From assembly GCA_032622095.1 (NCBI GenBank), contig CP136067.1, positions 78,952,705 through 79,016,704 on the forward strand: 64,000 nt of DNA, written 5' to 3'. Every line of letters starts with the position of its first letter. Position 1 is the stretch's first letter. The notes beneath the pieces are model-generated. The model was not told the origin of the DNA and ran no database searches. It was given only the letters and a program-made list of their open reading frames with translations. Positions 9,066-64,000 of this stretch are shown here, in pieces. A program made the translations under genes and the position numbers. This DNA comes from Siphonodentalium dalli. Lineage: Eukaryota; Mollusca; Scaphopoda; Gadilida; Siphonodentaliidae.

Positions 9066-9600
9066 CACACGTCATGTTCGCTGGTTTGGATTCTTACTCC
9101 CCGAATTGTAGGGAGAATCTAAACCGGCCAACATGGCGTGGCAGTGTTCCCGAATAACTATTCGCATGACCTGACCGACTTATAGCACAATTGACTGCAC
9201 ACAATGACATTAAATGGAAATCGACAAAGAGCACGTGCTGATCACGACACACAATCCGGGAGCGGAACGATTTCTTTGCAAGCCTTGATAATTGGTGTAC
9301 TTTACCGACAATTGGTGTTCTTTACCGACAATCGGGAAACGATTGTAACACTGGGATTAATATAGATAGTCTCTTTGAAAAGCCGACGAAAGTCCTATAT
9401 CTGATGTACATCTCTTGGACTCTCTATTTAAATTAGGTCCTGTATTGAAGGGATTCCCTACATTTCATTGGAGATTGGCGCAGATTTTGCAGATATTTTT
9501 TCAGTTTATTACGCCTTTCGTCGCATTTGACTATACATGCGATTCAGTTATAAACAGTGTACATAATATAAATGGGTACATGTATGTGAAGTGACATATA

Positions 9601-9745
9601 GAGGATCTCACATGAGTTTCTATTTTATACGGAATTTATCAACCGAGTTCACTAAATTCGATTTGAGCCGAGGTTTACCGAGGCTCAAATAGAATTTAGA
9701 GGACGAGGTTGATAAATTACGTATAAAATAGGACGAGTGTGAGAT
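9601..9745. repeat. Hairpin with mirrored CGAG boxes (H1)
   Basis: The two arms are inverted copies of about 70 bp, meeting at GAGCCGAGGTTTACCGAGGCTC. CGAG boxes at 9644-9647 and 9669-9672 face CGAG boxes at 9704-9707 and 9679-9682. TGAG at 9613-9616 faces CGAG at 9734-9737. In a true palindrome the partner would read CTCG. See the finding on G.A mismatches. Confidence 0.8.
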
Positions 9746-10089
9746 ACCTTTTATCACATGATCAAATAAACCCGAAGCAACGCGAAATATTCATCGAAAA
9801 CAACAATCATAAATTACAGCGATCGCAAGTTATTTGAAGAACGCCGTGACGTCATCGCACGCGCTGATATTAAACGTGTCTATTACCGATAATTATGAAA
9901 CTGCTTTTATGGCCAAATTATGTGATAAATTCATATACATACACAATACACACAATAAAGGTTGCAGTTATTGTGTAATACGTGTGCATGGTATCTAGAT
10001 TGAAGGTAGCTAACATATGTGGTGTTTAATGTAAGGGGGTCGGGGTGTTGTACGAGTCAACTGTACATGTCTTTTAACACGACTATTTT

Positions 10090-12010
10090 AGATTTTTTAT
10101 GTTTACCCATACCATAGTATGGTAAACATAGTGTCGTTGCCCGGATTGACCACTCGTCGTTGGTCCGTCTGGCCGTCTGTATGTCCGTCTGTCTGTCCGT
10201 AGACACTTTACGAGTAATGCGATAACTCAAACATTTTCTATCCGATCGAAACCAAATTTTGTATATGGGTTTCTCAACCTAAAATACAGATCGAGTTCGA
10301 ATTTGGGTTTGATCCGAGATTTTGTTACAGAGTTATGGCCCTTTTTCAACTTAGAATTAACGCATTCTGCCATAACTCAAACATTATGTATCTGATTGGA
10401 ACCAAATTTGGTATGCGAGTTTCAGAGCCCAAAATACAGATCGAGTTCGAATATGGGTTTGATCCGATTTATTTTAAAGGAGTTATGACCCTTTTTCGAA
10501 AATAAAATTAAAAAAACAAAAATCCGATGCTATAACCAAAGTATATTTTGTCCGATTGTGTTCATATTTGATATGTAGGTTTATGATGACATGCCCCTCA
10601 TCTGTATAGTTTATGGTATTGATTGGTTGATCGGTTTAGAAAATAATTAACCCTTTACACAGTACACACATGCTATCCAATGCAATAAGTTGAACATATT
10701 TCTTCTGATCTGCCTCATATTTCTTACCCAGGTTTTTCTTAGCACGTTCTTAGTCAGTATGGTTTTTGGTATTGTTTAATTAACCCTTTTCACTCTTATG
10801 TTTACTTAGAATTCACCCAAGCTGCTATGACTCAAAACATTTTTCATCTGATCAGCACCAAATTTGGTATATGAATTTATCACCCCTAAATACAGATCGA
10901 GTTCGAATATGGGTTTGATCCGATATATTTTAACAGAGTTATGACCCTTTATAATTCAAATAATTACTGCTGGGAATTTTAAGAGAACATATCTGGCAGA
11001 CCATGTGTTATTGAAATGAGTTAATTATCACTATGTCTATGGACATGCTATAAAGCCTGATAGTGGTACTCCTGGCTGGCAGGATTTGTTATCATATTAA
11101 TGTAAAATTGATTGATGGCTATCTGGTGGAGTGCTGTTTTCTGTGCAATATTAAGTTAACCCCTTTGCTGAAACAGGTTCATTACTAAAGTTTATGTAAA
11201 CACTATAGGACACCTATTCTAAAATATTAAATTGGAATAGTCCATTGTTACTTAATTTGTAGGGATGTTTTACAGACATTGTTGTCTACATACACTGTTG
11301 TCTTATCTTAGACAAAAATTAATCCACACATTCCTCAGTTCCATGATGTGATGTCATTGCAAATGATTAACCCTCTCCACACATCATATGGTTTTGAAGC
11401 TTTTCGTTTGATCATTCTCCTATATTATGTCCAGGTTGATGGTGATCCACTTTTGATTTGCATGGATTTGGGATTAAAATTAAACCATTCCATAGACACA
11501 TATTATGCGATTGACAGATATAATATTATCCCTTTCACTTTGATCCAGGTTCAGTAAGGGTTTCAATAAATCACCAATTATATATTCATCATTAGAGGAA
11601 ATGTCTTATTTTGAAATTCCCTCAGTTGCATTTGGGCTCCAGGGTAATATTAATGGTGCTGGTATTCTTGAGACTGACTTATTGTATGGGTTTCTAAATC
11701 CAATGACATGCTTTGTATAGACTATTTTGTGTTTATCAGTTCATTAGTTTGGGTAAGATTAACCCTATTCTATCCGATTTGATAACTCAAATATTTCCAT
11801 TGACTATGTTTATACATGTAGTTCTTGGCATAGTTGACAAGAACACACCCCTAACCTGCATAGTGAGGGTCATTTGGTTTATTTGCTTAAAAATATTAAC
11901 ATCCTCCGCCAATCCTGTTGACACAATGTGATAACTAAATATTTTTCACATGATCACTATATTAAGTGTGAATTGTTGAAACTTTAGCACTCATGAAAAG
12001 GTTGATGTAA
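10090..12010. repeat. Internally repetitive dispersed element
   Basis: The block starts near CCATACCATAGTATGGTAAAC, a short palindrome, followed by GTCCGTCTGTCTGTCC. It contains at least three copies of a ~120 bp module with ACCAAATTTGGTATATG, ATACAGATCGAGTTCGAAT and GGGTTTGATCCGA, then ACAGAGTTATGGCCC (around 10220-10340, 10380-10500 and 10830-10950). Homologous stretches occur at 36480-36870, 38340-38640 and 42270-42600. It is non-coding. Confidence 0.75.
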
Positions 12011-14583: not shown

Positions 14584-15160
14584 ATATAAGGATTAACTGT
14601 CATGTGGACTATTTTTATGGAGATGTAACCGTGAGGTAAGTGGACATAACTTGTGTAAAACCCGAAGGGTTTTACATACAAGTTATGACCACTTACCTCA
14701 CGGTTACATTTCCGGCGAGGCGGGCCAACTCGGCCGAGCATCCCTTCCGAAAGTGGACATGTCGGCGTCCATAAAAATAGTCCACATGACAGTTAATCCT
14801 TATATTTATATACATTTAGCGAAAAAGCCACTTTTGTAAATGTATTTAAATCGAAAAGTGTATCGTGACAAAAACAGCCCAAAATACCCAATAGTACCCT
14901 TGGCAAAAGTTAATAGGAACAATTTATCTTCGTATTGAAACCCGATGATGTATTAAGTCAATCCTGCGCGAGTCCAAATGCGCCCAAAACATTACGCGTT
15001 CGTCTTTCCAAACCCAATGACGTATCGATGTTGTTATGAGCTTGGTGTTATTGAGCCGTTGCGCATTCACCGATAAATAACTGCAACTAGCCACGTGGGC
15101 GCCGACCAATCAGAATGCTGGATTTAGTGATGACAACACTTAGTATGTAAATATATATAT
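14584..15160 (+). mobile_element. Foldback element family A, copy 2
   Basis: This copy has the same layout and strand as the one at 176-690. The hairpin's right arm is interrupted at about 14708-14770 by about 60 bp of GC-rich sequence (TTCCGGCGAGGCGGGCC ... GACATGTCGGCG) that the other two copies lack. The hairpin tip ACCCGAAGGGT is unchanged. Confidence 0.85.
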
Positions 15161-22544: not shown

Positions 22545-23420
22545 GACAAGGTCATTTGAGATAAAGTATTCACACGATAATTATCTAATGTGTTTACAGT
22601 ATAGTGGAATTCGTGTCGCTTTGTTCAGATAAGTTATCTGGTTGATGGATATCACAGGTGAACATTATGTAATTGTTATTATACAACCTTTCCTGCTGAA
22701 TGAAATTTGGAATGGAGGCTCGCCATCACGATTGCTTTCAATACAGTGGGGAAAATGACCAATGTACAACTTTGTTAAAACGCTGTTAATCTATTCCAGG
22801 TATGATATGAATAAAGGTCGTTTATCTGACTTACACTTGAACACAACTGGAGAGATTACTGATTATAGACGACATGAAGGAAACCGAGAGAAAATACACA
22901 TTGTTTATTATTTAAGGATACATAAGACAATAACTGAAAAAACACAATCCATGGGTCGTATCACCTTCTTCTGTATCAGAACTCCAGATATTTGATTCTA
23001 ATGGGCCATCCTTACTACTCCTTGTGGAATGTTACATTCTTTAATTGTATAAAAACCGAAATTCCAAATGTGCATCAATTGTGTGACACATGCAATCAGT
23101 ATGCTTATAGGTCTATATATAGTAGATTTGTAGTACTAGTATTTAGTTTTAACGTGTTTTCAGCAAAATGATATGTGTATTAGCCTCCTTGATAGAAGAG
23201 GGTATATACAGTGTCATGGTTGTGTAATTATGGGTAGCTTACTACCGCAATGCCCAGTGGACAGGAAAGACAATAAGAATTCGCGATTTCAGAGTCATGC
23301 AGTTGAACAAGCCTTTGAATCGATAGTACTGTTTCTATCACATGTTCAATGTCGTAAATTATTTTCGAGATGTCTGTTTTTGTGCAGTAGTTAATACACG
23401 TCTGTAGAATCATTGAGTTT
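22545..23420. other. Stretch with no recognised gene
   Basis: Only short chance frames occur. I see no repeats, RNA genes or convincing exons here. Confidence 0.35.
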
Positions 23421-23893: not shown

Positions 23894-24442
23894 AATTCAT
23901 CAAAACCCCCTGTCTTGAGACAATGTCACATAACCATTTCGTTAGGCCATATTCGCACCATTAATTTGATGTATCTGCCGCGTCGATACGTGAAAGATCA
24001 CCAAAGCTATATGAAAATGTGCACACTTTCGAAATAGGACAACCCTTGAACAGATTCCATCAAATAAAGCATAGCTATCACTGCATAATTCCACTTGTCA
24101 CAATGATTCACAATGTGACCTCAACAGAGTAAATTAGGATAGGATAGGATAAGTGTTTTTTACAATATACATACTTGAATATCACAAACATATGAACAAC
24201 ACAATATGAATGTTTTGTATGTTGCACGGGGTGATTATGTAGTGCTACTATGCTATATTTGATGGGAATCTGTTCAAGTGTTTGTCCGATTTTGAAAGTG
24301 TGCACATATTCATATATATCTTTGGTAATCTTCAACGTATCAATGCGGGAGCTACATCACATAAAAGGTGCGAATATGGTCTAAAGAAGTGTGTTTGTTG
24401 CATTATCTCATGCACAGGGGATTTTGATGAATTTTGTTCGCA
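23888..24442. repeat. Large imperfect inverted repeat
   Basis: Arms of about 190 bp (23888-24080 and 24235-24442) face each other across a ~155 bp centre. Matching landmarks are AAAATTCATCAAAA with CCCCTGT, CATATTCGCACC, GATACGT with GA, and GTGCACACTTTC with AACAGATTCC, each found inverted on the other side. Arm identity is roughly 75-80% by eye, so the structure is old. Its right arm runs directly into the 30-bp minisatellite. Confidence 0.75.
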
Positions 24443-24450
24443 GGCTGTCA

Positions 24451-25514
24451 AATGTTATCCACTCCTCGTATAGGCTGCCAAACAATATCCACTCCTCGTA
24501 TAGGCTGCCAAACGATATCCACTCCTCGTATAGGCTGCCAAACGATATCGACTCCTCGTATATGCTGCCAAACGATATCGACTCCTCGTATAGGCTGCCA
24601 AACGATATCCACTCCTCGTATAGGCTGCCAAACAATATCCACTCCTCGTATAGGCTGCCAAACGATATCCACTTCTCGTATAGGCTGCCAAACGATATCG
24701 ACTCCTCGTATATGCTGCCAAACGATATCCACTCCTCGTATATGCTGCCAAACAATATCCACTCCTCGTATAGGCTGCCAAACGATATCCACTCCTCGTA
24801 TAGGCTGCCAAACAATATCCACTCCTCGTATAGGCTGCCAAACAATATCCACTCCTCGTATAGGCTGCCAAACGATATCCACTCCTCGTATAGGCTGCCA
24901 AACAATACCCACCCCTCGTATAGGCTGCCAAACGATATCCACTCCTCGTATAGGCTGCCAAACGATATCCACTCCTCGTATAGGCTGCCAAACGATATCC
25001 ACTCCTCGTATATAGGCTGACGAACGATATCCACTCCTCGTATAGGCTGCCAAACGATATCCACTCCTCGTATAGGCTGCCAAACGATATCCACTCCTCG
25101 TATAGGCTGCCAAACGATATCCACTCCTCGTATAGGCTGCCAAACGATATCCACTCCTCGTATATAGGCTGACGAACGATATCCACTCCTCGTATAGGCT
25201 GCCAAACGATATCCACTCCTCGTATAGGCTGCCAAACAATATCCACTCCTCGTATATAGGCTGTCAAATGATATCCACTCCTCGTATATAGGCTGACGAA
25301 CGATATCCACTCCTCGTATAGGCTGACAAACGATATCCACTCCTCGTATATAGGCTGACAAACGATATCCACTCCTCGTATAGGCTGCCAAACGATATCC
25401 ACTCCTCGTATAGGCTGCCAAACGATATCCACTCCTCGTATATAGGCTGACGAACGATATCCACTCCTCGTATATAGGCTGACGAACGATATCCACTCCT
25501 CGTATAGGCTGCCA
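24451..25514. repeat. 30-bp minisatellite, 35 units
   Basis: The unit reads AACGATATCCACTCCTCG then TATAGGCTGCCA. I count 35 units with no spacers. The first 18 are 30 bp long. From about 24991 onward a 32-bp variant (TATATAGGCTGACG) is interspersed. Other variants are AACAATATCC, ATATCGACTCC and TATATGCTGCC. Because 30 is divisible by three, several frames stay open on both strands (up to ~390 codons). These repetitive frames are artefacts. Confidence 0.97.
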
Positions 25515-25839
25515 AACAAGTTCCGTACATGATGTGTGCTGTTAGCAAGGTGGTAGAGAATGAAAATGCTCCAATCTTGATCATGTTTGTATTCCGCACC
25601 ACGTGCGTCAAATTGTCCACGAACAGAAATCATTGCTCAACAAATACTGGTCAATCGCGTTTCCCCGCGAAGGTGTGCACCATGCACAGGAGAATGGAAT
25701 ATGGAAGATTCCAATGGCTTAGCAACTAACGAAGATATATGGCATGCCATATTGTTCGGGTATAGGAGGTATTGTTTAACAGCCTAATGAAATGACGAGT
25801 TGATCTGCATGTATATACTATAACCAATACAGAAGAAAT

Positions 25840-33415: not shown

Positions 33416-33930
33416 TTATATTTACATACTAAGTGTTGTCATCACTAAATCCAGCATTCTGATTTGTCGGCACCCACGTGGCTAGTTGCAGTTATTTCTC
33501 GGTGAATGCGCAACGGCTCATAACACCAAGCTCATAACACCATCGATACGTCATTGGGTTTGGAAAGACGAACGCGTAATGTTTTGGGCGCATTTGGACT
33601 CGCGCAGGATTGACTTAATACATCATCGGGTTTCAATATGAAGAGAAATTGTTCCTATTAACTTTTGCCAAGGGTGCTATTGGGTATTTTGGGCTGTTTT
33701 TGTCACGATACACTTTTCGATTTAAATACATTTACAAAAGTGGCTTTTTCGCTAAATGTATATAAATATAAGGATTAACTGTCATGTGGACTATTTTTAT
33801 GGAGATGTAACCGTGAGGTAAGTGGTCATAACTTGTATGTAAAACCCTTCGGGTTTTACACAAGTTATGTCCACTTACCTCACGGTTACATCTCCATAAA
33901 AACAGTCCACATGACAGTTAATCCTTATAT
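33416..33930 (-). mobile_element. Foldback element family A, copy 3 (inverted)
   Basis: This is a full-length reverse-strand copy of the element at 176-690, with its hairpin at about 33770-33927 and tip ACCCTTCGGGT. It lacks the GC-rich insertion seen in copy 2. The three copies share both ends, so element boundaries can be set by comparison. Confidence 0.88.
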
Positions 33931-34029: not shown

Positions 34030-34550
34030 AGGCACGGGCGGCGTTCGTTGCAGAAATATTCATATTTGTTCAAATCGCCACCTGCAGAAGGAATATTAAA
34101 TTATATATAGTTTTGTTCATATGCCAAAAATAATCAGCGCGCAAATAGTATATTGTCGTCAAGACGTATGATGGTGTACGTAAACAAGAGCCTGCTCGTG
34201 TTACAGAAGTTTTGCTTCTGTTTACATACCACACAGCTCAATTCTATTGGTTACTCACACACACATGATACAAACGCTCTTTATTATTTCCATATCAGGA
34301 AAACAGTAACAAAAAACGCTCTTTATGTTTACCATATCCGGATCTAAACAAAAGCCAGGTTCTGTAACGTTTTTTGCTTTTGTTTACATAACAAAGGAAA
34401 AACATTTGACAATAACATACTGTTTATGCCATATTTCTGATTGGTATAAGACCACAGTCTGTCTATATTTTACTTTATTTCTGTTTATGGCGGTTTTTGA
34501 CGGAGGTGAATATTTTAACAGCTTACCCACCGCCAACGCCGCCCGTATCT
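34030..34550. mobile_element. TTAA-flanked MITE, copy A
   Basis: The 521 bp lie between TTAA at 34026-34029 and TTAA at 34551-34554. The ends are AGGCACGGGCGGCGTT and an inverted, slightly diverged AACGCCGCCCGTATCT. The interior matches the copy at 34975-35468 along its length (AACGCTCTTTA repeated, GTTTACATAACAA, GTGTTACAGAAG). It carries no coding sequence. TTAA duplication is typical of piggyBac-type transposition, so mobilisation by such a transposase is an inference. Confidence 0.85.
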
Positions 34551-34702
34551 TTAAGCTCCGCCCATCGCCTGTCACTCGTGTTACCCGGCAGATTCAAACG
34601 TTTCGCTGGGTCGTGTATTCTCATCTTGTGGCTTTTATGGTTGCATTTGCAGTGCATCGTGAGAAAGGGTCGTTCTTAGTAGACAGTTCAGAACATTTGT
34701 CA

Positions 34703-34828
34703 GTGTTTTAAGTCAGGATTAATGAACGAGCGACTGGACATTCGGAAACTAGATGGGCGAGCCCGAAGGGCGAGACCATTTAGTTTCCGAATGTCCAGTC
34801 GCCAGTCCATTAACTGACTTAAAACACA
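34703..34828. repeat. Hairpin with mirrored CGAG boxes (H3)
   Basis: Arms of about 45-55 bp (GTGTTTTAAGTCA ... GGACATTCGGAAACT and its inverse) meet at GGGCGAGCCCGAAGGGCGAG. CGAG at 34758-34761 and 34771-34774 are mirror-placed around 34766. CGAG at 34727-34730 faces CCAG at 34802-34805, one base from the same rule. The tip is C-GAA-G. Confidence 0.8.
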
Positions 34829-35590
34829 GGTTTGAAATATACAACGATGAACTATATTTTCATGGCGATGAATTATTCTGATAAATCTCGATAACTGAGA
34901 CATATATATACGAACGTTTTATGTTAACAAAATAACTTCCGAATGTCCAGTCGCCAGTCCATTAACTGACTTAAAGGCACGTGCGGCCTTAATTGTCGAA
35001 AATATTCATATTTGTTCCAAACACCGTAAACATTAAAACATTAAAACGCATACAGTTCCGTTCATATATACCATGACCATCGCGTAAACAGCATGTTATC
35101 ATAAAGATTTACTATATTTTACCTAAGCAAGAGCCTGATTGTGTTACAGAAGACAGCACAGTGCTGTTGGCTAATCACACACAAATGGCATAAACGCTCT
35201 TTATTCGTTCCATATCAGAAATTCACCCACAAAGAACGCTCTTTATGTTTACCATCATAATATAAACAAACACCAGAAAAGTAACTTTTTATGCTGTTGT
35301 TTACATAACAATGGTCAAACATATGACCATAACACACTGTTTATGCGATATTTCTTATTTGTATACGGACAAAGTCTATCTACATTTTTATGTTCTTTCT
35401 GTTTGTGGCGGTTTTTGACGGGTGGATATATTTTCACAGGATACCCACCGCCAAGGCCGCACGTGCCTTTAAAACACAGGTTTGAAATATACAACGATGA
35501 ACTATATTTTCATGGCGATGAATTATTCTGATAAATCTCGATAACTGAGACATATATATACGAACGTTTTATGTTAACAAAATAACTCCT
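34782..35590. repeat. Tandem duplication split by MITE copy B
   Basis: A ~155 bp unit running from TTCCGAATGTCCAGTCGCC through TTAACTGACTTAAAACACAG to GTTAACAAAATAACT occurs uninterrupted at 34785-34937. It occurs again from 34937 to 35588, where the same TTAA holds the MITE. The two units are nearly identical apart from the insertion. Confidence 0.9.
34975..35468. mobile_element. TTAA-flanked MITE, copy B, with empty-site control
   Basis: The 494-bp element has ends AGGCACGTGCGGCCTT and the exact inverse AAGGCCGCACGTGCCT. TTAA lies on both sides, at 34971-34974 and 35469-35472. The neighbouring duplicate at 34785-34937 has a single TTAA (34819-34822) at the matching point, so the insertion boundaries and the 4-bp duplication are directly visible. 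It is non-coding and non-autonomous. Confidence 0.93.
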
Positions 35591-37740: not shown

Positions 37741-39990
37741 AGCTCACCTGAGACAAAGTCTCCGGTGGAGCTATAGTCATCACTCCTCGTCCGTCGTCCG
37801 TCCGTCCGTCTGTCTGTCTGTCTGTCTGTCCGTCAACTTTTTAAAAAACATCTTCTCCTCTGAAACCATCATACCGTATTGGTTCATATTTGGTGTGGAT
37901 GTTCCCTAGGTGACTCTCATTCAGATTTGTTCAAATGAGGTCACTGGGTCAAATAGTTGCGAAGCCAGGGCCATAACTCTATTCCTCCATAGTAATTCTT
38001 ACAACGACTTCTTGTTCAGAACCATTGGGCCGATTTAGCTAATATTTTGTATGGAGGGTCCTTGGGTCACTGGTGTTCAGATTTGTTCAAATGAGGTCAC
38101 CCGGTCAATTAGTTGAGAAACCAGGGCCATAACTCATAGTGATTCTTACAATGACTTCTTATAAAAAATATTTGGCCGATTTAGCTTATATTTGGTACAT
38201 AGATACCTTGGGTGACTGGGGTTCAGATTTGTTTAAATGGGGTCACTGGGTCAAATAGGGGCAGAGCCAGGGACATAACTTTAAAAACAAAAAAAATTAT
38301 TTTTGCATTTTGACCTTTAATTTTTGTTTAGGACACACCACAGCCTCATATTTCTTACCTAGATTTTTCTTAGCATGTTCTTCATCTGTATGCATTTTGG
38401 TATTGTTTATTTAACCCCGTCCACTCTTGTTTTGATATAGAATTCATCCAAGACATGATTACTCAAACATTTTTCATCTGATCAACACCAAATTTGGTAT
38501 ATGAATTTTTGACACTTATATACAGATCAAGTTAAAATATGGGTTTGATCCGATATATTTTAACAGAGTTATGGCCCTTTATAATTCAGACCTCTTTGCT
38601 ATGCACTATTAATTTTTAAGAGAACACTGTAGCCTGCATTATTGAAAAAGCCAATTTATCATAGTGTGGTCACCCGATATTCTTGCTTCAGACTGCTTGC
38701 TTCAGACCAGTTTGCCATCTGTCATTACATGACATGACATTATCTAAACAACTATTCTACCAGTCTACAATGAATAGTCCATTGTTCATTTATCCAAGCC
38801 TGGACATAGTGTGTCTGACATTTGCAGAATGAAGTCCCCAGATGGTGAATTTAGTGTTGCTACCCCATACAGCAGGCTAGCATCACCAAATACACCCTCA
38901 ATTACCTTATTCTGCTTAGGCCTCATCTTCTGGGACAATTTTTTTTAAACATTTGAAAAAAAGTGACACCATTATATATAACATCTGCAGAGTTATGAAA
39001 CTTTACTCTTTAATGAAATTATGGAAACATTCCACCCTCCCCCACCCCACCCCCTCCCACATGGCCCAGGCTCAACCCTGCCATCAACCAACATCCCTTC
39101 CAAGCCATATCACCTCTCAATTTAATACCTCTTCTCACCACAGAGGCATATATATCTGTAAAGGTACAGGTCATTAATTATATAAACTGGCCAGATGACA
39201 TGTATTATTCTAATCTAAACATATCTGTAGCAATTTAACAACAAACTGGTGCTTCCATTCAATGTTAGGTGATGACTGACATTCAATGATACTGTGAATG
39301 GCTTTGATTTCTTCAAGTCTGGAAATAGTGTGTCTGACATTTACATAGTGAGGTCCCCAGATGGTGAATTTAGTGTTGCTACACCATACAGCATGCTAGC
39401 ATCACCAAATACACCCGCCAGGGACCTAATTCTGCTTAGTCGTCATCTTCTGGGAAGTATCCTAAGTATCAAATTGACAGTTTGATTTAGTCACTTTTTC
39501 CACCTGTTCAGTTTCAATGTCCCCCTAATTTGCAGAAGATAAAATGCATAATTGAGGTGCTCAATGGGTGTGTATCACCAACTTCAACTGTAGGACTTCA
39601 TTGATTTAGTCACTTTTTTCCACCTGTTCAGTTTCAATGTCCCCCTAATTTGCAGAAGATAAAATGCATAATTGAGGTGCTCAATGGGTGTGTATCACCA
39701 ACTTCAACTGTAGGACTTCAATCTGTTCCTTGGTTTTATTGGCCATTGAGGCCTAATCAGATTGAGGATGAATTTGGTGATGCTAGCCTGCCTTACAGAA
39801 TATTGTCATTAAATCCACATTTTTGGGACCTAATTCTGCAAATGTCAGACATACTAAATTTAGGTTTGGCCATTTCATATTATTGTTTTGATCACCACTT
39901 ATCCAGATGAAATCATACGACTAATATTCAAAGAAAAATGGGGGGGGGTATATATTGGATTAAATTTGTCTTCTATCTGGCATTTGCAGA
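37741..39990 (+). repeat. Segmental duplication, copy 1
   Basis: This ~2.2 kb block and the one at 41687-43825 run in parallel. Both have an AGCTCACC head, GTCCGTC run, Tc1/MITE-like modules, the 10.1-kb-family segment (CACAGCCTCATATTTCTTAC), GGTCCCCAGA hairpins, a CACCCTCCC-rich stretch, and GGGGTATATATTGGATTAAA at the end. Small indels separate them. Short frames occur at matching places in both copies and follow the repeat. Confidence 0.88.
39482..39720. repeat. 119/120-bp tandem duplication
   Basis: The segment TTGATTTAGTCACTTTTT ... CTGTAGGACTTCA occurs twice back to back and differs only by one T. The matching place in the other large duplicate (about 43445-43562) has one copy, so this is a local, recent event. 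Confidence 0.93.
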
Positions 39991-40384
39991 ATGAGGTCCC
40001 CAGAGGGTGAATTTAGTTATGCTACCCTGCACAGCAGTCTAGCATCACCAAATACACTAGCCAGGGTCCTCATTCTGCTTAGGCCTCATCTTCTGGGAAG
40101 TATATAGGCACTTAAATTGACATCTTTAGCCCTTATGTTTAGTTTCTATATCCCCTAATTTGTGAATATAAAATGCATAATTGAGGTGGCCAATGGGTGC
40201 ACATCACCAACTTTAACTGGAGAACTTCAATATAATGCTATGTCTCCCATAGCAGTTGAGGCCTACACAGAATGAGGTCCCCAGAGGCAGAATTTGGTGA
40301 TGCTAGCCCGCATTGCAGGATTGTGTCATTAAATTCACCCTTTGGGGACCTCATTCTGCAAATGTCAGACAATTTGTTCAGGCT

Positions 40385-45065: not shown

Positions 45066-45087
45066 TAGGAGTCCAGGTCGTTGTGAA

Positions 45088-47637
45088 AATAAGTAGTATA
45101 ATGAGATCCCACTCACCACCCCATCCCGCCACCCATAGTATCTTATGCGCCACAGGCGCCCGTATAGAGGCTACTGACCACATAAATAAGTAGTATAATG
45201 AGATCCCACCCACCACCCCATCCCGCCACCCATAGTATATTATGCGCCACAGGCGCCCGTATAGAAGCTACTGCCCACATAAATAAGTAGTATAATGAGA
45301 TCCCACCACCACCCCATCGCGCCACCCATAGTATCTTATGCGCCACAGGCGCCCGTATAGAGGCTACTGACCACATAAATAAGTAGTATAATGAGATCAC
45401 ACCCACCACCCCATCCCGCCACCCATAGTATATTATGCGCCACAGGCGCCCGTATAGAGTCTACTGCCCACATAAATAAGTAGTATAATGAGATCCCACC
45501 CACCACCCCATCCCGCCACCATAGTATCTTATGCGCCACAGGCGCCCGTATAGAGTCTACTGCCCACATAAATAAGTGTTATAATGAGATCCCACCCACC
45601 ACCCCATCCCGCCACCCATAGTATCTTATGCGCCACAGGCGCCCGTATAGAGGCAACTGCCCACATAAATAAGTATTATAATGAGATCCCACCCACCACC
45701 CCATCCCGCCACCCATAGTATCTTATGCGCCACAGGCGCCCGTATAGAGTCTACTGCCCACATAAATAAGTAGTATAATGAGATCCCACCCACCACCCCA
45801 TCCCGCCACCCATAGTATCTTATGCGCCACAGGCGCCCGTATAGAGGCTACTGCCCACATAAATAAGTAGTATAATGAGATCCCACCCACCACCCCATCC
45901 CGCCACCCATAGTATCTTATGCGCCACAGGCGCCCGTATAGAGGCTACTGCCCACATAAATAAGTAGTATAATGAGATCCCACCCACCACCCCATCCCGC
46001 CACCCATAGTATCTTATGCGCCACAGGCGCCCGTATAGAGTCTACTGCCCACATAAATAAGTGTTATAATGAGATCCCACCCACCACCCCATCCCGCCAC
46101 CCATAGTATCTTATGCGCCACAGGCGCCCGTATAGAGGCTACTGCCCACATAAATAAGTATTATAATGAGATCCCACCCACCACCCCATCCCGCCACCCA
46201 TAGTATCTTATGCGCCACAGGCGCCCGTATAGAGTCTACTGCCCACATAAATAAGTAGTATAATGAGATCCCACCCACCACCCCATCCCGCCACCCATAG
46301 TATCTTATGCGCCACAGGCGCCCGTATAGAGGCTACTGCCCACATAAATAAGTAGTATAATGAGATCCCACCCACCACCCCATCCCGCCACCCATAGTAT
46401 CTTATGCGCCACAGGCGCCCGTATAGAGGCTACTGCCCACATAAATAAGTAGTATAATGAGATCCCACCCACCACCCCATCCCGCCACCCATAGTATCTT
46501 ATGCGCCACAGGCGCCCGTATAGAGTCTACTGCCCACATAAATAAGTAGTATAATGAGATCCCACCCACCACCCCATCCCGCCACCCATAGTATCTTATG
46601 CGCCACAGGCGCCCGTATAGAGGCTACTGCCCACATAAATAAGTAGTATAATGAGATCCCACCCACCACCCCATCCCGCCACCCATAGTATCTTATGCGC
46701 CACAGGCGCCCGTATAGAGGCTACTGCCCACATAAATAAGTAGTATAATGAGATCCCACCCACCACCCCATCCCGCCACCCATAGTATCTTATGCGCCAC
46801 AGGCGCCCGCATAGAGGTTACTGCCCACATAATTAAGTAGTATAATGAGATCCCACCCATCACCCCATCCCGCCACACATAGTATCTTATGCGCCACAGG
46901 TGCCCGTATAAGGGCTACTGCCCACATAAATAAGTATTATAATGAGATCCCACCCACCACCCCATCCCGCCACCCATAGTATCTTATGCGCCACAGGCGC
47001 CCGTATAGAGGCTACTGCCCACATAAATAAGTATTATAATGAGATCCCACCCACCACCCCATCCCGCCACCCATAGTATCTTATGCGCCACAGGCGCCCG
47101 TATAGAGGCTACTGCCCACATAAATAAGTAGTATAATGAGATCCCACCCACCACCCCATCCCACCACCCATAGTATCTTATGCGCCACCGGCGCCCGTAT
47201 AGAGGCTACTGCCCACATAAATAAGTAGTATAATGAGATCCCACCCACCACCCCATCCCGCCACCCATAGTATCTTATGCGCCACAGGCGCCCGTATAGA
47301 GTCTACTGCCCACATAAATAAGTAGTATAATGAGATCCCACCCACCACCCCATCCCACCACCCATAGTATCTTATGCGCCACCGGCGCCCGTATAGAGGC
47401 TACTGCCCACATAAATAAGTAGTATAATGAGATCCCACCCACCACCCCATCCCGCCACCCATAGTATCTTATGCGCCACAGGCGCCCGTATAGAGTCTAC
47501 TGCCCACATAAATAAGTAGTATAATGAGATCCCACTCACGACCCCATCCCGCCACCCATAGTATCTTGTGCGTCACAGGCGCCCGTATAGAGGCTACTGC
47601 CCACATAAATAAGTAGTATAATGAGTGTTGAGTCCAA
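45088..47637. repeat. 97-bp satellite array, 26 units
   Basis: The unit contains CATAGTATCTTATGCGCCAC, AGGCGCCCGTATAGAG, CTACTGCCCACATAAATAAG and a CCCACCCACCACCCC stretch. GCGCCACAGGCGC forms a small hairpin in each unit. I count 26 units, most over 95% alike by eye. Variant positions (GAGGCT/GAGTCT; AAGTAGT/AAGTATT/AAGTGTT) form a five-unit higher-order repeat. Proline- and tryptophan-rich frames here are not genes. Confidence 0.97.
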
Positions 47638-54914: not shown

Positions 54915-55172
54915 ATACAGTAATGCCCTAAGTAATCGACCTCTTAACCACAGCAGAATTATGGGTAACTTTTCAGGATTTAGTAGGAAATATGGCTTGT
55001 TGCCATTCATCGGAAAGCTCTCGGGGAAAATATGGCTTGTTGCCATTCATCGGAAAGCTCTCGGGGAGAGCTTTCCGATGAATGGCAACAAGCCATATTT
55101 CCGACTAAATCCTGAAAAGTTACCCATAATTCTGCTGTGGTTAAGAGGTCGATTACTTAGGGCATTTACTGT
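54915..55172. repeat. Near-perfect long palindrome
   Basis: The left arm (CAGTAATGCCCTAAGTAATC ... GGAAAGCTCTC) and right arm are reverse complements over about 110 bp, with one internal mismatch and one short indel near the outer end. The left arm has a 40-bp tandem duplication (TATGGCTTGTTGCCATTCAT at 54991 and 55031) that the right arm lacks. The tip is GCTCTCGGGGAGAGC. A plus-strand frame through it has no protein meaning. Confidence 0.9.
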
Positions 55173-55426
55173 AGTTAATCTTTTCATTTTAATGTTGTAA
55201 CTGAATCTCGCTATTATCGAGTAGCTTTAGAATATCATAAGACTCTAGCCAAGTTTTGTCATGTAAGCCAACTGCTCAAACACATATTTGAGTGAATCTC
55301 TTAACTCAGGTTGTATCGGAATCCGGGTTTCTGTGGTGTTCCCTGAAATGCTGTTGCCGAGACCTGCAGAAAGACACAATTCGAACACCGAGAACAGGTT
55401 CACGAACACCATTACGTCATGTTCAC

Positions 55427-62724: not shown

Positions 62725-62924
62725 CTGCAGAGAAACATACCATTGTTGATCTGTTGTGAATAATGATGCTATCTCACCAACTGCGTGTACTTGAGATAGT
62801 GTACTTTGGAAATTCCGGTGGCAGGTTTATGGTAAATATATTGCGTTTGTTACACATAGAAAAACGTTATACAATTGTTGATCGGTTGTCTATAACGTGA
62901 ACCGCCCCCTAATTGATTGAGATA

Positions 62925-63090
62925 TAGAGGATATCCAACGAGTTATGTTGGGATATACGATTTTATGAAACGAGTTTGATAAATTTGATTCACAACGAGT
63001 CGTAGACGAGTTGTGAATCAAATTTATCAAACGAGTTTCATAAAATCTTCTATCCCAACATTACGAGTTGAAGATCTTGTATATCACATG
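62925..63090. repeat. Hairpin with mirrored CGAG boxes (H2)
   Basis: Arms of about 75 bp meet at AACGAGTCGTAGACGAGTT. CGAG boxes at 62939-62942, 62971-62974 and 62996-62999 face CGAG boxes at 63064-63067, 63032-63035 and 63007-63010. All three pairs are centred exactly on 63003. The rest of the stem pairs normally except a short mismatch at about 62957-62960. Confidence 0.88.
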
Positions 63091-63141
63091 GAAAAAAACT
63101 AGAGTAGAGCTTTATGAATTTTTAAGAAATCAAAATCATTA

Positions 63142-63453
63142 AGCCGCTTTCACACATGTCCGTTTCTCGGATGCGTTTCCTTGCGTTTCTAATATTTTAA
63201 CGCATCCGGAAAACGCATCGGTCGAAATAGTGAAGCTAGCCACACATGCTTGTGTATGCTTTTTTAGAAACGCAGGCGAAACGCAGCATTTCAAGTCCGA
63301 GACATGAAAAAAAAGAAACGCATCCGGCAAACGCACATGTGTGAAATACCCAGTGATATTATCACTGTTTTGACCGATGCGTTTTCCCGATGCGTTAAAA
63401 TATTAGAAACGCAAGGAAACGCATCGGAGAAACGGACATGTGTGAAAGCGGCT
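63142..63453. mobile_element. MITE with 81-bp TIRs (PIF/Harbinger-like)
   Basis: Both ends begin AGCCGCTTTCACACATGTCC and are inverted copies over about 81 bp with two mismatches. The flanks are TTA on both sides (63139-63141 and 63454-63456), or TTAA if the end base is counted differently. A 3-bp TTA duplication is typical of PIF/Harbinger elements. The inner part repeats AAACGCA-type words. It is non-coding. Confidence 0.85.
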
Positions 63454-63457
63454 TTAA

Positions 63458-63910: not shown

Positions 63911-63944
63911 CCCTTTACCCAACATAAGGGCCCTGTGCCAATGA

Positions 63945-63997
63945 ATTCTATTATATATGCGAGTCGACCATAGGTCGCCTCGCATATATAAGAGAAT
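63945..63997. repeat. Hairpin at window end
   Basis: ATTCTATTATATATGCGAG and the inverse CTCGCATATATAAGAGAAT enclose TCGACCATAGGTCGC, which itself folds (CGACC / GGTCG). The element may continue past the window. Confidence 0.8.
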
Positions 63998-64000
63998 GCA

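Follow-up and report, generated by a model that had tools for sequence, protein, structure and literature searches.

Mirrored CGAG boxes appear to be retained in a small family of palindromic repeats

In a palindrome with complementary arms, a CGAG box of the left arm should be faced by CTCG in the right one. Why, then, does a palindrome carry CGAG in both arms, at mirrored positions and in the same orientation, so that each box pair of the folded strand encloses two adjacent G·A mismatches? We addressed this question within the window, i.e., the complete stretch of 64,000 nucleotides that was analysed. The sequence-only reading had reported three mirrored CGAG pairs, and all six boxes are indeed present (copy A, Table 1), each within an ACGAGT and in exact mirror symmetry (i+j = 126006). 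It had also described the surrounding stem as close to perfectly complementary. This holds for the inner part, where S2 and S3 together show 46/49 Watson-Crick pairs, and less so for the ends, i.e., over the whole arms (62918-63001 vs 63005-63088) 70 of 84 positions are Watson-Crick paired, with the G·A of the boxes making up six of the 14 remaining positions. Furthermore, the palindrome is longer than first noted, and two further such hairpins (copy B and hairpin C) lie in the 64-kb window. The DNA folding energy of copy A is -52.2 kcal/mol (62900-63110; z = -12.9), and none of the 200 shuffles was as good. We rejected a description of the boxes as kink-turns, in which tandem G·A is combined with a three-nucleotide bulge, since the boxes of A are symmetric and its stems ungapped.

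Table 1. Palindromic elements of the window, with the parts of copy A and the boxes of copy B.
Feature	Position	Strand	Evidence or remark
Copy A, whole palindromic element, 173 bp	62918..63090	+	MAFFT alignment with B; cmsearch with R1, 190 bits (by construction, as the covariance model R1 was derived from A and B)
A conserved 5' end (TGANATATAGAGGATNTC...)	62918..62938	+	17/21 identical to B
A outer box, left CGAG (partner 63064-63067)	62939..62942	+	
A stem S2, left arm, 28 nt	62943..62970	+	25/28 Watson-Crick vs S2 right
A middle box, left CGAG (partner 63032-63035)	62971..62974	+	
A stem S3, left arm, 21 nt	62975..62995	+	21/21 Watson-Crick vs S3 right
A inner box, left CGAG (partner 63007-63010)	62996..62999	+	
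A apical loop TCGTAGA (GTA triloop, C-G closing)	63000..63006	+	
A inner box, right CGAG	63007..63010	+	
A stem S3, right arm	63011..63031	+	
A middle box, right CGAG	63032..63035	+	
A stem S2, right arm	63036..63063	+	
A outer box, right CGAG	63064..63067	+	
A conserved 3' end (...TATCACATG)	63068..63090	+	15/23 identical to B; final nine 9/9
Copy B, second element, 169 bp	9592..9760	+	blastn vs A 73% over 75 bp, E about 3e-4; alignment
B boxes	TGAG 9613; CGAG 9644, 9669, 9679, 9704, 9734	+	
Hairpin C, arms unrelated to A and B	34703..34827	+	blastn vs A and B without match at E 0.01
Palindrome family D, near-perfect arms, CCC-GAA-GGG loop	155-350; 14619-14713 (truncated); 33766-33930 (reverse orientation)		
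Palindrome E	54916-55173		88% over whole; CGAG zero, CTCG two

Copy B, located 53 kb from A, is a relative of the same anatomy. Counted from the first base of the element, the boxes start at 21/53/78/89/114/146 in A and at 21/52/77/87/112/142 in B, i.e., their order is the same and their spacing near-identical. The ends are conserved as well: within the window, the 5' end ATATAGAGGATNTC is found in A and B only, with up to two mismatches allowed, and the alignment shows TATCACATG to be common to both 3' ends. The arms of B are Watson-Crick paired at 65/80 aligned positions. According to the sequence-only reading, a CTCG in the right arm of other copies would have spoken against its interpretation. 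In B, the one further copy, all three right-arm boxes read CGAG and none reads CTCG; in the left arm, CGAG is kept in two of three boxes, and the outer one (TGAG) is the outcome expected of a CpG to TpG change.

The immediate context of the boxes bears on the possibility that they are double-stranded protein-binding sites, i.e., ACGAGT in direct orientation, six per element, with an incidental palindrome. While all six boxes of A share this hexamer, as such a reading would have it, only one of the six does so in B (the others are ATGAGT, CCGAGT, CCGAGG, CCGAGG, and ACGAGG). Mirrored positions combined with a single orientation are moreover the outcome of a folded strand and nothing that a duplex-binding protein needs. 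We regard duplex-binding sites as quite improbable.

Outside the hairpin, no blastn similarity between A and B was found at E 0.01 (flanks of at least 300 bp per side for A and of about 240-290 bp for B), suggesting the hairpin itself as the unit. When scanning the window with R1 using default filters, A and B are returned on both strands each, given that they are palindromes, together with one weak match. The latter (10280-10478, E 0.07) was rejected as a further copy since it sits inside a tandem duplication. The same applies to a third exact match of an end motif at 23334, for which reading revealed no adjoining hairpin.

With regard to sequence conservation between A and B, 23/24 bases of the boxes are identical compared to 57/92 aligned bases of S2 and S3 (Fisher p = 6e-4) or to 22/42 when considering S3 only (p = 1.4e-4). 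At the same time, S3 pairs with itself at 21/21 positions in A and 18/21 in B, while cross-pairing of the left arm of A with the right arm of B (10/21) or of the left arm of B with the right arm of A (12/21) is much poorer. That is, the stems changed in pairs: in the A/B alignment, 16 of 72 stem pairs are altered on both sides with pairing retained, a number that was reached in 0/500 shuffles (mean 8.1), and slid partners give 1-4 such double changes. For 18 of the 72 pairs one copy is unpaired, namely nine in S2 (where the alignment has indels), seven in the end stem, and two in S3. For this count, we used the structure of A and omitted beforehand all pairs that lack pairing in both copies (including the boxes) or are gapped in B, which inflates the percentage paired (87.5%) and leaves the number of double changes unaffected.

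The boxes had been argued not to stem from random decay, and both their presence in the relative B and their conservation above that of the stems agree with this. Whether they are binding sites or structural joints had been left as two suggestions; a box conservation exceeding that of the stems would be expected of either. Judged from the two sequences, the mismatches appear to have been retained within a small repeat family and not to have arisen by decay.

To relate the CGAG boxes to other motifs, we compared all 48 tetramers that, placed opposite a second copy of themselves, show two mismatches enclosed by closing pairs, counting each within well-paired stems of the whole window. Using a strict cut-off (75% of the flanking positions paired), six mirrored CGAG pairs are observed, of which A provides three, B two, and C one. 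The respective counts for AAAT, CCAG, AGTT, and ATTT are 2, 2, 1, and 1, and 43/48 tetramers have none, including CTCG, i.e., the same boxes seen on the opposite strand. Both strict CCAG pairs belong to either a 73% palindrome or a short tandem array; the palindrome (39986-40078) places CCAG opposite CCAG. If the boxes were a chance coincidence, other tetramers should do similarly well, which is what a loose cut-off (65%) gives (AAAT 7, CCAG 7, CGAG 6, ATTT 3), with AAAT drawing on far more pairs than CGAG (1839 vs 79). At the strict cut-off, on the other hand, dinucleotide shuffles of the window (n=200) yield on average 0.005 CGAG pairs with a maximum of 1, compared to the six seen, and the pattern of A recurs in copy B and in hairpin C. 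Chance is hardly credible as an explanation.

This third hairpin, C, carries its inner CGAG boxes (34758/34771) next to a CCC-GAA-GGG loop, while 31 bases farther out an outer CGAG (34727) is found opposite CCAG (34802). The inner boxes are part of a direct repeat, with GGGCGAG occurring twice at a distance of 13 bases, and could therefore derive from a short tandem duplication. C is thin evidence for a class, yet independent of A and B. The surroundings of C (34400-35590) are rich in nested duplications, e.g., an identical 119-bp stretch occurs at 34819-34937 and again at 35469-35587, while 34937-34975 repeats 39 bp from the right arm of C.

The remaining palindromes of the window serve as control. 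The D palindromes contain neither CGAG nor CTCG, and since D and E come without CGAG boxes, such boxes are not the rule for palindromes here. Two-base mismatches of various kinds are found in further gapped palindromes of the window. As minor observations, E contains close to its centre 40 bp that are perfectly duplicated in tandem (54988-55067), and in a short-loop palindrome that ends at the window edge (63942-64000) CGAG faces CTCG normally.

The full copies of D (D1 and D3) differ in the alignment by one inner pair, G-C vs C-G, which suggests as the simplest reading that one arm served as the template for the other, i.e., arm-to-arm correction. This difference is present in both arms, showing that covariation does not require selection. 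Arms can thus change together in palindromes devoid of such boxes; paired arms are nothing special as such, and their paired change alone does not demonstrate that a folded strand is under selection. The peculiarity of A and B lies in their boxes, which evaded this matching of the arms and were left unaltered.

This leads to the main rival of a recognised folded strand, the latter being our first choice. Here, A and B would be an ordinary palindromic repeat and would owe the boxes to an ancestor that had them by accident; template switching or repair would match the arms, and the functionless boxes would escape since G·A joints are not treated as mismatches. Arm-to-arm correction seems to occur in this genome, as seen for the inner pair of D1/D3, and the available excerpt of PMC3820800 describes for imperfect palindromes of yeast mutations that extend the identity between the arms. 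In addition, the boxes of A and B are shared by descent, for which a single origin suffices. Such a passive escape leaves unexplained, however, both the three identical mirrored boxes of the ancestor and the CGAG boxes of the unrelated hairpin C. Arm correction, perfecting quasi-palindromes, would furthermore yield CGAG/CTCG, and the D copies retain an A·A mismatch as well as a two-base bulge, i.e., escape is not special to G·A. We consider passive escape a possible but rather unlikely origin of the pattern.

We also compared the folding energies of both strands. Using RNA parameters, the energies of the + vs - strand are -88.9 vs -81.6 kcal/mol for A, -84.1 vs -69.4 for B, and -83.8 vs -83.0 for C. 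The respective values for DNA parameters are -52.0 vs -51.6, -46.0 vs -40.7, and -51.0 vs -48.8. The + strand is thus favoured by RNA energies for A and B (hardly for C) and by DNA energies for B and C (hardly for A), a preference that rests partly on how the energy tables treat G·A. Among A, B, and C, six G·T face three A·C, which are too few to decide; leaving aside the A·C of the decayed box of C, G·T make up 6/8 (p = 0.14).

A better + strand fold under RNA parameters in A and B is what would be expected if the palindrome is transcribed, with the double-stranded RNA feeding a small RNA or other dsRNA pathway and G·A joints that mark or limit processing in steps of about 21 and 28 bp. The length of S3, 21 bp in both copies, fits this as well, as do weak Rfam matches to families of palindromic miRNA precursors. 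These weak matches look like palindromy alone, though, with three families matching both strands, and no Rfam 15 family reaches its gathering cut-off within the whole window (best weak match 51.3 bits of 119 required). A hairpin RNA thus appears improbable to us.

Our first choice, held tentatively and with slightly less than even confidence, is that A and B form a MITE-like palindromic repeat, the folded + strand of which is handled with its G·A joints in propagation, where ends and joints are recognised. They would be copies of a small, non-autonomous, fully palindromic repeat of about 170 bp that is presumably mobile. The + strand would fold into one hairpin composed of conserved end, G·A joint, a stem of 26-28 bp, joint, a stem of 21 bp, joint, and a loop of 6-7 nt. 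The propagation machinery would then handle this folded strand, either as single-stranded DNA or as RNA, and probably recognise the ends along with the CGAG/CGAG joints, such that the letters of the stems may vary freely provided pairing holds. The CGAG context is expected to give stable sheared tandem G·A pairs, with which the joints would act as rigid landmarks in the hairpin and not as holes.

With regard to MITE features, A and B are short, non-coding, and bordered by terminal inverted repeats; with 173 and 169 bp they are too short for a transposase. Dispersal is represented by two copies in the 64-kb window, which are 53 kb apart and share no flanks. No target-site duplication is evident by eye beside A or B, the copies being diverged and their exact ends uncertain. 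The MITE-like reading gains from the CGAG boxes of C, whose arms are unrelated, and suffers from comprising only two copies in one window.

Full-length palindromic MITEs, such as MADE1, resemble A and B in being short, non-coding, and palindromic throughout, with more than one copy and conserved ends. MADE1 itself is palindromic. In contrast to such MITEs, no target-site duplication is seen by eye for A and B (given their uncertain ends), the conservation of their mirrored tandem G·A boxes exceeds that of the stems, and the stems differ between the copies while pairing within each. The accessible part of PMC1784062 names human MADE1 as the source of hsa-mir-548.

For REPINs, the consulted part of PMC3116915 reports conserved ends with a less conserved middle, length and hairpin formation as the critical features, and common compensatory changes; movement through a folded single strand is proposed there, too. 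As far as that excerpt goes, REPINs thus share with A and B conserved ends that flank a less conserved, hairpin-forming middle. Unlike A and B, they are bacterial and tied to RAYT transposases, while the 64-kb window is eukaryote-like; its LINE-like reverse transcriptase, C2H2 zinc finger, and repeat content suggest an animal-like genome. We know of no CGAG boxes in REPINs. The resemblance would be one of working, not of membership.

A third system to compare with is the left-end hairpin of parvoviruses. The available part of PMC1185569 (on LuIII; we read the passage as referring to minute virus of mice) describes a mismatched GA doublet vs a GAA triplet and states that the letters of the doublet are unimportant. 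Following that passage, the hairpin is like A and B in its G/A-rich mismatch within a stem, which in parvovirus matters for end processing. It differs in that it is asymmetric, has a single bubble, and forms a viral genome end instead of a dispersed repeat.

A wider reading would take A/B and C as members of a eukaryotic mobile-hairpin class with at least two unrelated families in the window, which would propagate via a folded single strand and employ tandem sheared G·A joints (CGAG/CGAG) at fixed distances as recognition marks while the stems drift in pairs. We think this doubtful.

Descriptions of palindromic repeats usually concern their letters. In the present case, it is a non-Watson-Crick joint that is kept along with its spacing, and the stems drift pairwise, which suggests that a folded strand is read in this eukaryotic repeat. 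Should this hold throughout the genome, it would provide a simple, testable example of a mobile repeat recognised by its structure or, alternatively, of tandem G·A joints that are invisible to the processes making palindrome arms identical.

Concerning relatives elsewhere, neither an exact piece of A nor the two conserved ends had matches in viral contigs, and no blastn match of A was obtained at E 0.01 in phages and plasmids. The bare box pattern occurs in at least 120 stretches of the viral contigs (137 pattern occurrences in those loci). We took these for chance and not for relatives, as the best arms among the matches listed pair at 14/21 positions with G-T allowed, compared to 19 and 21 in the window. 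The stricter ACGAGT pattern gave five stretches in prokaryote contigs, all of which proved on reading to be tandem repeats or of low complexity (3 to 10 of 19 positions paired) and were likewise rejected. Within the accessible parts of the literature on tandem or sheared G·A, palindromic or foldback repeats, palindrome repair, and parvovirus hairpins, we found no palindromic repeat for which tandem G·A boxes at mirrored positions are described. The A/B family may already be catalogued under some name.

Beside these palindromes, the window holds a MITE-like inverted repeat at 63141-63454, which begins with AGCCGCTTTCACAC, has 93-nt arms that are 96% complementary, and shows TTA on both sides by eye; it resembles a non-autonomous element of PIF/Harbinger type. 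A 30-bp unit forms a tandem array of about 35 copies at 24442-25517, which contains CTCGTAT and is open in several frames. Finally, a satellite-like array with a 97-bp unit (45087-47625; about 26 copies, 97% matches) is found along with a LINE-like reverse transcriptase ORF and a C2H2 zinc finger.
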